Below are positions 1 to 5,188 of a DNA stretch of 5,188 nucleotides, piece by piece (position 1 is the first letter of the stretch; each line of letters starts with the position of its first letter). The position numbers and the translations under genes were made by a program. The DNA lies in the NCBI GenBank assembly GCA_016200125.1, contig JACQFK010000302.1, positions 1 through 5,188 of the forward strand, given 5' to 3'. The notes beneath the pieces are model-generated. The model was not told where the DNA came from and did not search any database. It saw only the letters and a list, made by a program, of their open reading frames with translations. The DNA is from Planctomycetota bacterium. Lineage in GTDB: Bacteria; Planctomycetota; MHYJ01; JACPRB01.

Positions 1-2270
1 CCCGGCTTGAGGTCGCCGCCGCTCGCCAAAGCGCCGCGCCAGTCCGGGGGCAGTTCGACTTTCTCCTTGAAGCGCTTGTAGTCGGGCCGCGGCTCGGGGA
101 CGGACACGCCGCGATCGTCGCGATAGTAGGTCCAGATGCGGTCGAGGAGGTCGCCGGCCACCTCGCGGGACTTCGGATCGCCGTGGGCGATGAGCGCCCG
201 CGCGAGCGCCGCCGCCACGCCCAGGTCCCGGGTCTCGTCGGCGGTCGAGACGTGCAGCCCGGCGCCGGGCCGACCCGACCATTTCAGCGTCGCGGGCAGG
301 GAGTAGCTCCCGTCCGGATGGAGCTTCACGACGCTCCGCGCCCAGGCGGCCCACTTGTCGACGACGGCGCGCGCGGCGGGATCGTCCGCGATCCGCGCGT
401 ACTGGGCCAGGCGGCCCATCGACCAGGCCTGCCAGCCGAACCATTCGTTCGACGGCGGGTCGCGGAAGACGGGATGATCGACGTAGGCGAGGCCGTGGAA
501 GGTGGGCGTCCCCGGCGGAAGCGGCTCGTAACGGCCGTTCAGGCTCGCCGTCGCGCCGCCGGCGATCGCTCCTTCGGCGGACTGCAGCCAGGCGTAGAAC
601 TCGACCTGCCGGGCCACGCTCGCCGACCAGTCGCGCGCCGCTCCGGGGGAGGGCGGCTTCAGCAGCGGGTCGTTCGCGAGCGCCCAGGCGGCGAGGGGAT
701 TCTGGTAGCCGAAGTGGACGTGGCTTGCGCCGCTCCTCCAGGCCCAGCCGTTGCTGCGGTCGAGCGATCCGCCCCAGGCCTGGGACCAGGCGAGGAGATG
801 GTGGTCGGTCTTGAAATACTTGTCGTGGAGCGCGTAGCGGAGCGAGTCGCCCATGCGCGCCGCCTTGTCGAGCGGCAGCAGCGCGGCAGGGTCCTTGCCC
901 TGCTCGCGCACCCAGCGCGCGGCCCAGTAGGCGGCCTGGATCACGCGGGCGTCGGCGTCGGGCGCCCCCGTGTAGCGCCACTGCTTCACGTAGGACGAGT
1001 CCTTGATGAAGAGGTCGAGGTAGCCGTTCTTCCCGCCGGCGCCGAAGGTCTCCTTCGACGGATGCGGGATCGTCTTCCAGACCGACTCGGAGGGCCCGCG
1101 CTGGAACGTGTTGACGAAGGCGTTCTTCCCGAAGCCGTAGAAGTCGTCCACGTCGACGAGCCAGTGCATGATGTAGAGGTCCTTCGAGATGAGTTCCGCG
1201 GGGAGCGGATCGGCGCCCACGGCGAAGGACGGATCCAGGGCGACGGGATAGTCGCGGACCCGGTCCATTTCGGGAACGTAGGTCGCGGGAACCTGCGGCT
1301 TGTAGAGATCGTTCGTCGGCTGGTCGGCCGGCGAGGGGATGAAGGCCTCCTCCATCTTCTTCCAGGCGGCGTTGAAGGGAGCCCAGTCGCCGGTCAGGCG
1401 GCCCTGCATCGCCTCGAGCCAGAGCCAGTAGCTCATCGTCTCGCTCGTGGTGAGGTGGCCGTAGTCGGGCGCGTCGACGATCAGCGTCTCGACGGAGTGA
1501 TAGGGGATGCCGTCGGCGCTGAAGTAGCCCTTCTTCGGATCGTGCAGGTCGCGCCAGAGCGCGGCGAAGCGGCCGTCATAGACGCCGCTCCGGAGGATCT
1601 TCGCGCCGGGCCGGGTCTCGGCCGCCTCCGACGCACCCACGTCGACGCTTTCGTCTCCCCCGATGAGCCGGACGCTGCCCTCGGTCACCTCTAGGCGCGT
1701 GGATTTCCCGGAAGCCGAGAGGATGAAGCGCGTGCCGAGCACCCGGGCCACGGCGTCCGGCGTGGTCAGGATCATCGGCTCCGGCTGGCGGGCGACGACG
1801 GCGCGCAGGGAGCCCTTGGAGAGCGTGAAGCGCTTCGCGGGCGTCAGGGCGCTGATGACGAACCGGGCATCCGGAGAGAGATCGATCCGGGTCGATTCGC
1901 CCGGGAACCTGAGCGAATGCTGGCCCCCCATGAACGTCAGCTGGTGCTGCGGCTTGCCGTCGAGGAAGAAGAGCGGCGGCTTCTCCCCGCGGGTCAGGTA
2001 GAACGCGAGGGTCGCGATCAGGAACGCGGCCGCGGCGGAGGCGACCCGGAGCCGGCGCCGGCGTCCGAGGCCGCGGATGCGGCCCTGGATCGCCGTGATC
2101 GCCTGCTCCTCGTGGAAGTGGCGGTCGAGCGCGTGGTCCAGGCGCGAGGCGCGGGCGAAGGCCTCCGCCGCGGCGGGCGACTCCGAGAGCAGGCGATCCA
2201 GCTCCTTCCGCTCCCCGTCGGTGGCGAGCCCGTCGAGGTGCTTCCGGATCAGGTCGTCGGGGGAGCTCAT
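1..2270 (-). CDS. FecR-type anti-sigma factor fused to GH48 cellobiohydrolase domain (partial, C-terminus off window)
   Basis: Reading down from ATG at 2270 there are 756 stop-free codons before the window edge. Residues 1-55 resemble the sigma-binding N-terminus of planctomycete anti-sigma proteins (LIRKHLDGL, then an acidic/alanine helix ending LDHALDRHF) and lack a zinc HxxxCxxC motif. An Arg cluster (~64-75) precedes one membrane helix (~75-93), predicting an N-in, C-out topology. Residues ~125-215 are FecR-like (FTLSKGSLRAVV, TTPDAVARVLGTRF, LEVTEGSVRL). From ~231 onward the protein is clearly GH48, the inverting, processive cellobiohydrolase family acting from cellulose reducing ends. 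Landmarks are YHSVET 257-262, APDYGH 267-272, TTSE 274-277 (Glu277 aligns with the proton donor, Glu55 of Cel48F), HWLVDVD 369-375, TFQRGP 388-393, APDADAR 436-442 (containing the proposed base) and AEGAIAGG 565-572. About 60-70 residues of GH48 should remain outside the window. FecR and GH48 share one frame (ATG 2270 and the EAM Met at 1409 are in phase). The start overlaps the sigma factor stop by ATGA. Whether the enzyme is active, a sensor, or both is inference. Confidence 0.94.
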   Translation of the reverse strand, partial: MSSPDDLIRKHLDGLATDGERKELDRLLSESPAAAEAFARASRLDHALDRHFHEEQAITAIQGRIRGLGRRRRLRVASAAAAFLIATLAFYLTRGEKPPLFFLDGKPQHQLTFMGGQHSLRFPGESTRIDLSPDARFVISALTPAKRFTLSKGSLRAVVARQPEPMILTTPDAVARVLGTRFILSASGKSTRLEVTEGSVRLIGGDESVDVGASEAAETRPGAKILRSGVYDGRFAALWRDLHDPKKGYFSADGIPYHSVETLIVDAPDYGHLTTSETMSYWLWLEAMQGRLTGDWAPFNAAWKKMEEAFIPSPADQPTNDLYKPQVPATYVPEMDRVRDYPVALDPSFAVGADPLPAELISKDLYIMHWLVDVDDFYGFGKNAFVNTFQRGPSESVWKTIPHPSKETFGAGGKNGYLDLFIKDSSYVKQWRYTGAPDADARVIQAAYWAARWVREQGKDPAALLPLDKAARMGDSLRYALHDKYFKTDHHLLAWSQAWGGSLDRSNGWAWRSGASHVHFGYQNPLAAWALANDPLLKPPSPGAARDWSASVARQVEFYAWLQSAEGAIAGGATASLNGRYEPLPPGTPTFHGLAYVDHPVFRDPPSNEWFGWQAWSMGRLAQYARIADDPAARAVVDKWAAWARSVVKLHPDGSYSLPATLKWSGRPGAGLHVSTADETRDLGVAAALARALIAHGDPKSREVAGDLLDRIWTYYRDDRGVSVPEPRPDYKRFKEKVELPPDWRGALASGGDLKP

Positions 2271-2779
2271 GGAGGTCCGGCCTGCAGGCGGCGCTGCAGG
2301 CACTCCTGGAGGTTTTCCCGTATGCGGCTGAGGAGCTTGTGGACGGCGTCGAGCGAACTGCCGACCTCCTTCGCAATTTCCGCCAGCTTGAGGGAGCGCT
2401 CGTAGCGCAGGGCGAGCAGGCTCTGTGAGCGGGGCGGCAGCTTCGAGATGCAGTCGCGGAGGTCGGCGGGGTCGGGGGCGAGCTTCTCGGTACGGTCGTA
2501 GGCGTCGACCAGCGCCTGGATGGACGGGGGGGAGAAGGCCAGCGGAAGCCGGCGGCTCTTCTCGAGCCCCTGGAGGACCTTCTTCATGGCGACCCCCCGC
2601 GCCCAGGCGCCGAAGGGCCGGGCCGGGTCGTAGTTGCCGAAGCTCTGCCAGAGGACGAGCGAGATCTCCTGGAAGAGGTCCTCCGCGGCCGCGCGGTCGC
2701 GCACGACCGAGCCGAGGAAGGCCCGGAGATCCCCCTGGTGCCGGAGGAACAGTTTCAGGAACTCCTCGTTCGTCTTCAT
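2267..2779 (-). CDS. ECF-type RNA polymerase sigma factor (Rhodopirellula/Verrucomicrobium-like family)
   Basis: This 170-residue protein (172 if started at the ATG at 2785) has the two-domain layout of a group 4 sigma factor. The sigma-2 region begins EEFLKLFLRHQGDLRAFL and contains DLFQEISLVLW, the core-binding/-10 recognition helix pattern. After a short linker, the sigma-4 helix-turn-helix reads LPPRSQSLLALRYERSLKLA followed by IAKEVGSSLDAVHKLLSRIR. The second ATG (2779) is preferred because AGGAG lies six bases before it, whereas the first ATG (2785) directly abuts AGGAG. The stop overlaps the ATG of the downstream FecR-GH48 gene (ATGA), the usual arrangement for an ECF sigma factor and its cognate anti-sigma factor. 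It should therefore be held at the membrane by that protein and released by an extracytoplasmic signal. Family assignment is confident; the target promoters are unknown, and no clear self-recognition motif is visible upstream. Confidence 0.95.
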   Translation of the reverse strand: MKTNEEFLKLFLRHQGDLRAFLGSVVRDRAAAEDLFQEISLVLWQSFGNYDPARPFGAWARGVAMKKVLQGLEKSRRLPLAFSPPSIQALVDAYDRTEKLAPDPADLRDCISKLPPRSQSLLALRYERSLKLAEIAKEVGSSLDAVHKLLSRIRENLQECLQRRLQAGPP

Positions 2780-2785
2780 GGACAT

Positions 2786-2844: not shown

Positions 2845-3504
2845 CTAGGAGAGGTCCCGGAGGATCAGCTCGAGGGCGATGTCGAGGTGGGCCTTCATCG
2901 CGGCTTCCGCGGCGTCGGCGTCGTGCTTCTCCAGGGCGGCGATGACCTTCAGGTGCTCGGGGTGGGCCTGCTTCATCGTGGGCGGGTCGAGCTTGAGCCA
3001 CTGGATCGCGCGGACCCGGCGGTTGATGCGGGCGATCTCGTGGCGGAGCAGCGCGTTCGCGCTGGCTTCGGCCACCTTCAGGTGGAACTGGTTGTCGAGG
3101 TCGAGCTTCGCCTTCTTCTGCGACGGGCTGTCCGCCATCGCGTCGCACTGCTCGGCCACCTTGCGGAGCTCCGCGAGCTGCGCCCCGTTGACGTTCTTGG
3201 CCGCCAGCCGCGCCGCGCCGCACTCCAGGATCTCGCGGATCTGGAAGGTTTCGACGATGTCCTGCCGGCTGAAGTTGACCACCGTCGAGCGGCGGTTGGG
3301 GTTGCTGGTGACGAGCCCCTCGGCGGAGAGCCTCGAGATCGCGTCGCGCACGGGGCTCGGGCTCACGTTGAACTGCGAGGCGAGGTCGGCGACGTGGAGG
3401 GCCGCCCCGCTCGCGAGCGCGCCGGAGTGGATGGCGTCGACCAGCCGCGTGTAGACGTGGTCGGCCAGCGAGGTACGCGCGATTCCGGTTCCCAGCGGCG
3501 TCAT
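2845..3504 (-). CDS. GntR-family transcriptional regulator, FadR subfamily (FCD domain)
   Basis: This 219-residue regulator starts at the ATG at 3504 (MTPLGTGIARTSLADHVYTR). An N-terminal GntR winged helix-turn-helix (~12-76) contains VADLASQFNVSPSPVRDAIS followed by RLSAEGLV, the hallmark recognition segment. The C-terminal FCD all-helical ligand domain (~83-210) has the usual pattern of candidate metal ligands: Asp137 and His141 (DNQFH), His184 (PEHLKVIAAL) and His206 (MKAHL). FCD regulators generally respond to small organic acids or sugar-derived acids; the ligand here cannot be read from sequence. The reading frame stays open further upstream, but that part is arginine/proline-rich shadow sequence inside the beta-propeller gene. 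The chosen start overlaps that gene's stop by ATGA, implying translational coupling. It most plausibly regulates its own operon and perhaps the divergent cytochrome gene. Confidence 0.95.
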   Translation of the reverse strand: MTPLGTGIARTSLADHVYTRLVDAIHSGALASGAALHVADLASQFNVSPSPVRDAISRLSAEGLVTSNPNRRSTVVNFSRQDIVETFQIREILECGAARLAAKNVNGAQLAELRKVAEQCDAMADSPSQKKAKLDLDNQFHLKVAEASANALLRHEIARINRRVRAIQWLKLDPPTMKQAHPEHLKVIAALEKHDADAAEAAMKAHLDIALELILRDLS

Positions 3505-4397
3505 CGGAGCGGCACCCCCTCGAGCGGCTTTCCGTTCGTCTCCAGGATCTGGACGTGGTGGACGCCGGGGCGCTCGCTCGTCCAGGTCCACACGACCTTC
3601 TTCTCCCGGGTGACCTCGAAGAGCTTCACGCCTTTCGCCGACATCCCGTAGCTGGCGATGACGGTGTTGCCGTTCGGCAGCCGCTGGGCGCCGCAGGGGT
3701 CGCGGAAGAGCGGCGCGCCGAGGTCCTCGTTGGAGACCTGCCAGACGATCTTGCCCGCGGGGTCGAACTCGACCGCCCGGAGCCCGTGGGTCAGCGTGAC
3801 GAGCGTGTTGCCGCTGTCGAGCCGGATCGCGGTGAAGGGCCAGCACTCCTTGGGCTCGTCCGGCGTGCGGGCTTCCCACGCGACGCTGCCGTCGGGCTTG
3901 TACTCACGCACGACGCGGTCGAGCAGGTGGGGCACGAGGAAGTTCCCGTTGGCGAGCTTCCGCGTCATGCGGGATTCCATGTGATGGTTCTGCGTCTGGC
4001 ACTGGATCGGAATCTCGACGACGGTCTTCCCGTCGCGGTCGATTTCGAGCACTCGAGGTTTCGCTCCCGCCTCAGTCAGCAGGAGATGTCCGTCGGGCAA
4101 AGGCTGGACGGTGTTCACTTCGCTCTGGGTGCCTTTGAAATCGAAGTGGGTCTTGCCGTAGCGATCGACTTCGACCACCGCGCCGCCGGGATACTCCTTC
4201 GATTTCGAGACGGCGAGGAGGAGATGCCCGTTGGGCAGGACCCAGCCATCCCGCGTGGACTTGGGGTAGGTCCAGGAGATCGAGTCATCACCGGCGACGA
4301 TGTAGGTCTGGGCGCCGGCCACCAGGAACGAGTGGGTGATCTTCTCCGCAGACTCCTGCTGGGACAGGAGCAAAATCGAAAGAAACAGACCGTTCAT
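3501..4397 (-). CDS. Exported beta-propeller protein with PQQ-like/arylsulfotransferase-like repeats
   Basis: This protein has 298 residues. The first ~12 residues are hydrophobic (LFLSILLL) and look like a short signal peptide, though without the usual basic residues at the N-terminus. The rest is built of regular repeats about 46 residues apart. The turn L-x-[ND/S]-G-[HN] followed by hydrophobic residues occurs at ~54 (LPNGHLLLA), ~100 (LPDGHLLLT), ~148 (LANGNFLVP), ~193 (LDSGNTLVT) and ~240 (LPNGNTVIA). Each is followed by a strand pair of the type VxExDxxGKxVW, for example VEVDRYGKT, LEIDRDGKT and VEFDPAGKIVW. Five clear units plus terminal strands suggest a six-bladed propeller. No catalytic motif is recognisable and no cofactor can be assigned. 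An in-frame TGA just upstream leaves the ATG at 4397 as the only good start. It is the first gene of the minus-strand set and overlaps the GntR gene by four bases. Substrate or partner is unknown. Confidence 0.88.
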   Translation of the reverse strand: MNGLFLSILLLSQQESAEKITHSFLVAGAQTYIVAGDDSISWTYPKSTRDGWVLPNGHLLLAVSKSKEYPGGAVVEVDRYGKTHFDFKGTQSEVNTVQPLPDGHLLLTEAGAKPRVLEIDRDGKTVVEIPIQCQTQNHHMESRMTRKLANGNFLVPHLLDRVVREYKPDGSVAWEARTPDEPKECWPFTAIRLDSGNTLVTLTHGLRAVEFDPAGKIVWQVSNEDLGAPLFRDPCGAQRLPNGNTVIASYGMSAKGVKLFEVTREKKVVWTWTSERPGVHHVQILETNGKPLEGVPLR

Positions 4398-4522: not shown

Positions 4523-5188
4523 ATGCGTATCATCCTCCTGTTCCTCCTGGCCGCCCTGATCGCGGATGACGCCGCCACAGCCAGGGTCCAGGAAGACCCC
4601 GCGGCGGCCGAGTTCTTCGAGAAGAAAATCCGGCCGGTCCTCGTCGACCGCTGCCACTCCTGCCACAGTTCCACCGCCGTCAAGTTGAAGGGCGGGCTCA
4701 AGCTCGACACCCTCGAGGCCGCGCTCAAGGGCGGCGACACCGGTCCCGCGCTCGTGCCGGGCCATCCCGAGAAGAGCCCGCTGGTCGAGGCGGTCTCCTA
4801 CAAGAACATCGACCTGCGCATGCCGCCGAAGGGCAAGCTCCCGGCGGAGCAGATCGCCGATCTCACCGAATGGATCCGCCGCGGCGCGCCCTGGCCCAAG
4901 GGAGCCGTCGGCGCCGGCGGTCCGAAGAAGGAGGAGTTCGATCTCGCGAAGCGCCGGTCGGAGCACTGGGCCTGGCAGCCGCTGCGCGCCGCCGCGCCGC
5001 CCGCGGTGAAGAACGCGGCCTGGCCGAAGCGGCCCCTCGACCGCTTCCTCCTCGCGAAGCTCGAGGAGCGCGGACTCGAGCCCGCGCCTCCCGCCGATCC
5101 GCGCACGCTGGTCCGCCGTCTCGCCTTCGATCTCACGGGCCTGCCGCCGACCCCCGCGCAGGTCGAGGCCTTCGTCGCGGATCCCTCC
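4523..5188 (+). CDS. Planctomycete-type cytochrome c protein (PSCyt1 plus DUF1549), partial
   Basis: This frame is open for 222 codons to the right edge. The N-terminus MRIILLFLLAALIADDA is a signal peptide or lipid-free membrane anchor. The region ~28-125 is a cytochrome c domain of the planctomycete PSCyt1 type: FFEKKIRPVLVDRCHSCH with the heme-binding Cys44, Cys47 and His48, a GGLKLDT segment, VPGHPEKSPLVEAV, and LRMPP whose Met100 is the likely second heme ligand. A linker with HWAWQPL (148-154) follows. At ~170 begins the DUF1549-like part, RPLDRFLLAKLEERGLEPAP and then RRLAFDLTGLPPTPAQVEAF. Complete proteins of this family are usually 700-1100 residues with a further DUF1553 domain, so most of the gene lies outside the window. 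These proteins are expected in the periplasm; their biochemical role is not settled. The gene is divergent from the beta-propeller/GntR operon and may share its control region. Confidence 0.95.
   Translation, partial: MRIILLFLLAALIADDAATARVQEDPAAAEFFEKKIRPVLVDRCHSCHSSTAVKLKGGLKLDTLEAALKGGDTGPALVPGHPEKSPLVEAVSYKNIDLRMPPKGKLPAEQIADLTEWIRRGAPWPKGAVGAGGPKKEEFDLAKRRSEHWAWQPLRAAAPPAVKNAAWPKRPLDRFLLAKLEERGLEPAPPADPRTLVRRLAFDLTGLPPTPAQVEAFVADPS

Follow-up and report, generated by a model that had tools for sequence, protein, structure and literature searches.

The sigma factor gene and the regulator with a GH48 domain

The window analysed here is a whole contig of 5,188 bases (JACQFK010000302.1, assembly GCA_016200125.1) from a Planctomycetota bacterium, the minus strand of which encodes an extracytoplasmic function (ECF) sigma factor followed by a FecR-type regulator that carries a cellulase domain of glycoside hydrolase family 48 (GH48). 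The sigma factor belongs to the Rhodopirellula/Verrucomicrobium family defined by TIGR02989 (137.3 bits, above the cut-off of 124.55; E 3.9e-40), and a Pfam scan matched both Sigma70_r2 and Sigma70_r4_2 in its open reading frame (ORF), so that sigma2 and sigma4 are both present. The regulator/GH48 frame begins with the ATG at 2270-2268 (-), inside the four bases that it shares with the end of the sigma gene, and is open as far as window base 3, for 756 residues; the gene runs off the end of the contig, which cuts off about 50 C-terminal residues, close full-length relatives being about 800 residues long. The original prediction, made from the letters alone, had described an ECF sigma gene paired with a FecR-type regulator bearing a GH48 outer domain in a single uninterrupted frame that starts in a four-base overlap, and the TIGR02989, PF04773 and PF02011 matches and the ATGA at 2267-2270 bear out this description; the further claim that the GH48 domain is whole holds for positions 1-564 of the 619-position profile and fails for the C-terminus, which is cut at the window end. 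The features of the pair are:

2267-2785 (-): ECF sigma factor of 172 amino acids, Rhodopirellula/Verrucomicrobium family (TIGR02989, Sigma70_r2, Sigma70_r4_2)
2267-2270 (-): ATGA in which the sigma gene ends and the regulator gene begins, read from the sequence
2052-2270 (-): helical region at the N-terminus (residues 1-73), predicted to be cytoplasmic and presumed to be anti-sigma from its helices and position
1995-2051 (-): predicted transmembrane helix, residues 74-92 (hydropathy 1.83 across 19 residues)
1668-1937 (-): FecR domain, residues 112-201 (PF04773, E 7.2e-13)
1731-1736 (-): Gly179-Thr180, paired by hhalign with the self-cleavage dipeptide Gly181-Thr182 of E. coli FecR
3-1580 (-): GH48 domain (PF02011), residues 231-756, running off the window edge at its C-terminus
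1473-1475 (-): Asp266, a clade-specific Glu-to-Asp change at the Glu44 position of Cel48F, eleven residues before the catalytic acid
1440-1442 (-): Glu277, predicted catalytic acid by alignment (Glu87 of CelS, Glu55 of Cel48F)
957-959 (-): Asp438, predicted catalytic base by alignment (Asp255 of CelS, Asp230 of Cel48F)

The same architecture is found in many relatives, for which labels beginning with P denote proteins and labels beginning with L denote DNA loci. The domain search and survey of FecR plus GH48 architectures that the original prediction proposed found both domains in 59 of 120 listed proteins (the window protein and P0119 included; precomputed Pfam column), encoded on many separate contigs, and in an alignment of 57 members both GH48 and FecR were matched in all 57 at E up to 1. 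The AlphaFold model of the full-length relative P0002 (mean pLDDT, the predicted local distance difference test score, 91.5) has N-terminal helices that run on to the membrane helix, residues 69-81 scoring under 50, followed by a beta domain at approximately 100-217 and by GH48 from residue 228 on.

In the AlphaFold model of the window protein, the N-terminal region forms similar helices at residues 3-12, 18-30 and 32-73, with most of residues 50-81 under pLDDT 50. No Pfam anti-sigma model matches the N-terminus of the window protein, and among the 57 members there are five weak matches to zf-HC2 (best E 0.11) and three weak matches to RskA_N (best E 0.0058). The anti-sigma role of the N-terminus is thus presumed on the basis of its position, its predicted helices and the gene overlap. 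Hydropathy of at least 1.6 in the membrane segment is a feature of 55 of the 56 clade members tested. An Arg-rich stretch lies just before the hydrophobic segment 74-92, and by the positive-inside rule the protein is predicted to have its N-terminus inside and its C-terminus outside. The clade aligns with E. coli FecR by hhalign (E 3e-5, probability 72), and the Gly-Thr pair is invariant (57/57 aligned members). In E. coli FecR the Gly181-Thr182 bond is the site of self-cleavage, with cutting by RseP afterwards (PMC8144685), and FoxR likewise cleaves itself at Gly191-Thr192 (PMC11637429). Foldseek matched the P0002 model to PupR (6ovk) and to a putative anti-sigma factor (4m0h), both of which are also matched by the sequence profile at profile positions 97-222. 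The STN subdomain is not among the families matched in the window protein or in the 57 members, FecR ending at residue 201 and GH48 beginning at residue 231, and no RsgI family is among those listed for the 57 members.

The GH48 half is matched by PF02011 at residues 231-755 (E 8.6e-215), and the ten best Foldseek matches of the P0002 model to GH48 enzymes of solved structure superpose at 1.2-1.4 A (1.2 A across approximately 620 columns). The catalytic acid is kept in 59 of 60 clade rows, the other being a gap, and every one of the 60 rows keeps the catalytic base. Where Cel48F has Glu44, the clade has Asp in 58 of 60 rows, Glu in one (P0044) and a gap in one, versus Glu in all 228 other rows, of free GH48, many of which are close Streptomyces sequences; after thinning, Asp is found in 43 of 44 clade clusters versus Glu in 19 of 19 others. 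The E44Q variant of Cel48F has approximately 1% of its activity left (PMC4055089). Residues 263-268 are poorly modelled in the cut window protein, which is taken as an effect of the missing C-terminus, and the block averages 82 in P0002. Other near-fixed residues have changed in the clade as well: Tyr at 496 is replaced, mostly by Ser, residues 513, 575 and those at five more positions also differ, and position 435 is Gly, Cys, Ala or Ser in the clade and Asn, Asp, Thr or once Ala elsewhere. We read this pattern of substitutions as suggesting that catalysis by the GH48 domain of the clade is retuned, not abolished. Neither a cellulose-binding module nor a dockerin appears in the family list of the 57 members.

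Relatives, neighbouring genes and host genomes

The 60 planctomycete rows form one clade, with a support of 0.999, in a tree built from 200 GH48 domains; these rows include the fragments P0040 and P0049 (no FecR in the precomputed column) and P0036 (FecR at E up to 1), and P0051, P0059 and P0060, being too short, were excluded from GH48 alignments and counts. A few of the FecR-GH48 relatives carry the names of Planctomycetota or Planctomycetaceae metagenome-assembled genomes (MAGs). The N-terminal part alone, used as a query, returned 18 proteins, 16 with GH48 and two with FecR only, in a search that relied on shared words and could miss other fusions. In a contig scan, among the best 80 of 403 relatives, the N-terminal part was covered by L001 alone (query 6-756), and the matches of the rest begin at residue 119 or later under titles that are mostly Streptomyces.

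Other fusions of GH48 to sigma machinery were found with P0119 as the query: a second FecR-GH48 group (P0119 and P0125-P0128), P0140 and P0161. P0140 has FecR (23.6 bits) and DUF4880 (24.4 bits), both just below their cut-offs, in addition to GH48, and P0161 (921 residues, from a contig of 8033 bases) combines in one chain an ECF sigma factor (residues 42-190), a hydrophobic segment (262-280) and GH48 (296-919); as a single sequence on one contig, P0161 may be a chimera. All seven of these proteins keep Glu at the Cel48F Glu44 position. P0119 adjoins the main clade in the first tree with a support of only 0.386. In a quick tree of 41 rows, the second group stands beside P0133 (Shimodaira-Hasegawa-like approximate likelihood ratio test, SH-aLRT, 99), which has the same domain set as P0132, a protein named from a Verrucomicrobiota MAG, and P0140 stands with P0173 (named Humisphaera) and P0151 (SH-aLRT 98); the starred branches of this tree require no fewer than four transitions between the fused and the free state of GH48. 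In approximately unbiased (AU) tests of groups that were named after the tree was seen, a single clade that unites the planctomycete group with the second group is not rejected (p 0.26), the addition of P0140 to that clade is rejected (p 0.0046), and a union of the second group with P0140 is borderline (p 0.047). The account favoured by these results has at least two origins of FecR-GH48 proteins, plus the sigma-GH48 chain known from one contig.

Gene context is visible at three loci, the window, L001 and L083, each of which is interrupted by a contig end. At L001 the regulator gene shares an ATGA with the tail of the sigma gene before it and a further ATGA with a GH5 cellulase gene after it; at L083 the contig stops inside the regulator gene on the upstream side and a CBM6-GH5 gene lies downstream, also with an ATGA overlap. 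The sigma overlap is thus present at both loci where it is visible (window and L001) and the GH5 gene at both where it is visible (L001 and L083), and each GH5 gene is the strongest GH5 match in its genome. By eye, the GH5 proteins (L001 2786-4102; L083 5369-7273) have a Gly-rich, then hydrophobic, then basic C-terminal stretch like a sorting signal, and an ORF for a Gfo/Idh-like oxidoreductase lies beyond the GH5 gene of L001 (4149-5186, +). The minus strand of the window encodes, in the order of transcription, an ORF with matches of Mala_s_1-like and arylsulfotransferase type (3501-4397), a GntR/FCD regulator (2845-3504) that overlaps it by four bases and is directly upstream of the sigma gene, a gap of 59 bases, the sigma factor, and the regulator/GH48 protein; at 4523-5188 (+) a gene for a planctomycete cytochrome (PSCyt1/PSCyt2) protein begins in the divergent direction. 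No TonB-dependent receptor is among the five window ORFs scanned, the downstream side being beyond the window end and the loci of the relatives being visible in part.

GH48 is rare in the phylum. It was matched in two of 392 sampled genomes, in both of which FecR is in the same frame, and a second draw of the phylum around a different centre again gave two of 392; the two GH48-bearing genomes are in one class, 23 of whose genomes were searched. There was no GH48 match in a class draw of three genomes around G004, the controls also being negative, or in 14 control genomes. Each of the two genomes has a single GH48 match, which is the FecR-fused one, and neither has a GH9 match. They contain two and three TonB-receptor barrels, with weak STN matches of which one is above the cut-off, and site-2-protease family members, which are present in 14 of 14 control genomes as well. 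FecR matches number 11 and 19 in the two genomes (loci L114-L141). Pfam scans of 24 of the 27 other FecR proteins (L135, L138 and L141 were left out) identified a further outer-type domain in seven: CBM96 in four, PA14 in one, a WD40-type propeller in one, and LamG in one, the LamG-bearing protein beginning with a kinase. Thus, the swapping of outer domains on FecR proteins recurs in these bacteria. A sigma gene is beside or near the FecR gene at 13 of the 27 other FecR loci.

The GH48 domain as a candidate sensor

The reading that we favour, with a probability of about 0.62, is that the two genes encode a sigma/anti-sigma pair in which GH48 takes the place of the receptor-reading module of a FecR-type regulator and serves as a sensor of cellulose or cello-oligosaccharides. 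In the proposed mechanism, the N-terminus would keep the ECF sigma factor tethered to the membrane, FecR, which may already be cut at Gly-Thr, would act as the signal switch, and GH48 would read the ligand on the periplasmic side. Once a chain of cellulose or a cello-oligosaccharide occupied the GH48 tunnel, or was slowly worked through it, this engagement would destabilise the FecR domain or pull it apart, whereupon a site-2 protease could cut the membrane helix and the freed sigma factor would transcribe its own operon, including the secreted GH5 cellulase. The trigger may be occupancy of the tunnel, turnover, or force. Planctomycetota are outer-membraned, so the GH48 domain is expected to be periplasmic and its ligand is more likely to be a chain or oligosaccharide that is soluble or has been imported than the fibre.

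Several observations weigh against this reading. Conservation of the catalytic acid and base is what an active enzyme would require. As part of the FecR-domain motif, the Gly-Thr pair does not imply cleavage; the literature is split on it, the pair being conserved among several regulators according to PMC8144685 and nonconserved according to PMC7186176. The neighbourhood can be read at three loci alone, and the window has no visible downstream gene. Among the other FecR proteins of the two genomes, 17 of the 24 scanned have none of the counted outer domains (just FecR, or else a zinc finger or a match below threshold), so that sensor-like outer domains are in the minority, and at 14 of the 27 loci no sigma gene was found by the test applied, the FecR frame running off the contig at six of these 14.

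In a more specific proposal, which we advance tentatively as a rather unlikely possibility, the GH48 domain has been converted to a slow probe of force or occupancy, such that a chain engaged in its processive tunnel pulls apart a pre-cut FecR domain and thereby releases the sigma factor. Such a probe would have been recruited more than once (by the planctomycete FecR clade with Asp266, by the Verrucomicrobiota-like FecR clade, by P0140 and by the sigma-transmembrane-GH48 chain), and the tunnel of this processive cellulase would be a cellulose sensor that recurs among bacteria, in convergence with RsgI.

It is unlikely, in our estimation, that GH48 is simply a membrane-anchored periplasmic cellobiohydrolase for which the anti-sigma and FecR parts provide the anchor, the sigma factor answering some other signal read by FecR. 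The near-complete conservation of both catalytic residues, the status of this domain as the sole GH48 match in both genomes, and the co-encoded GH5 partner would all suit such an enzyme. However, the outer domains on other FecR proteins (7/24) are of binding or propeller type rather than enzymes, no STN or alternative reader domain was found in the protein, the clade alone has a change at the position where E44Q nearly silences Cel48F, and the family list of the 57 members contains no cellulose-binding module. We consider it less probable still that GH48 is at once a working cellulase and the sensor, with turnover (processive pulling or product) driving the switch. The conserved acid and base agree with this, and a processive tunnel enzyme mounted on a possibly pre-cut FecR domain would be a plausible force sensor, but Asp266 and the loss of near-fixed residues (435, 496, 513 and 575) suggest that catalysis is altered. 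Very improbably, self-cleavage at Gly-Thr, which aligns with the E. coli FecR site, releases GH48 so that anti-sigma factor and cellulase then act apart; the two parts of FoxR interact and are both required for signalling (PMC11637429). An assembly chimera or chance frame, in favour of which nothing was found, is rejected: the join is shared by relatives on separate contigs, within one GH48 clade, and the confident P0002 model contains it.

If the GH48 domain does act as a sensor of the kind that we favour, the input to a FecR switch can come from an enzyme domain rather than from a receptor in the outer membrane, and RsgI-like sensing of polysaccharides evolved anew out of unrelated parts. 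To our knowledge, the means by which outer-membraned bacteria notice insoluble cellulose are poorly understood. A single protein that would couple an enzyme threading cellulose to a sigma factor is a candidate sensor open to direct test, in a phylum with few GH48 genes. It also advises caution in annotation, as a GH48 gene, usually the mark of a cellulose degrader, may here belong to a regulator.

Comparison with known systems

In agreement with the original prediction, no description of a FecR-GH48 system was found in the open-licence literature, which is not proof of absence, and some members are already named FecR or GH48 proteins in database records. The parts are known and the combination is apparently undescribed, with precedents for its logic in RsgI-GH10 and in actinobacterial ECF52/ECF53.

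Free and cellulosomal GH48 enzymes (CelS, Cel48F and the module of C. bescii CelA) have the same fold and the same catalytic acid and base as the GH48 domain of the clade, which differs from them in being fused to FecR, in having no carbohydrate-binding module (CBM) or dockerin among the families listed, and in having Asp at the Glu44 position.

The regulator half resembles the FecI/FecR/FecA type of system (FecR, FoxR, PupR) in its ECF sigma factor, single transmembrane helix, FecR or juxta-membrane domain and Gly-Thr site, and the annotated E. coli fecI and fecR genes overlap by four bases, as in the window and L001. In PupR, an STN subdomain follows the juxta-membrane subdomain, and binding of the TonB-dependent transducer of the outer membrane requires the two together (PMC7186176). 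In contrast, STN was not found here and GH48 begins approximately 30 residues past FecR; thus, the receptor-reading module has apparently been replaced by a cellulase domain.

The RsgI sensors of Clostridium thermocellum include CBM3, CBM42, PA14, GH10 and an S1C peptidase, and signal by periplasmic self-cleavage followed by RseP (PMC12203970). The proposed likeness is that of a membrane anti-sigma factor with a polysaccharide-reading outer domain, which is once a glycoside hydrolase: the GH10 domain of RsgI6 has very low activity and yet binds (PMC4711584), making it a parallel for a retuned GH48. The SigI factors have their sigma4 domain replaced (PMC6056542), whereas the system described here has an ECF factor with sigma2 and sigma4, FecR as the regulator domain and GH48 outside, no RsgI family being listed, and is found in an outer-membraned phylum. 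The original suggestion of SigI/RsgI-like logic built from different parts is supported as a likeness of function.

The actinobacterial ECF52 and ECF53 proteins are sigma factors with fused transmembrane segments and carbohydrate-binding or predicted glycosyl hydrolase domains (PMC10766802, PMC8999054), and so likewise join sigma machinery to an outer domain of this type. They differ in being one-chain sigma proteins with a zinc-finger domain, and the descriptions compared name neither FecR nor GH48. P0161, with its sigma factor, transmembrane segment and GH48 in one chain, is nearer to the ECF52/ECF53 kind.

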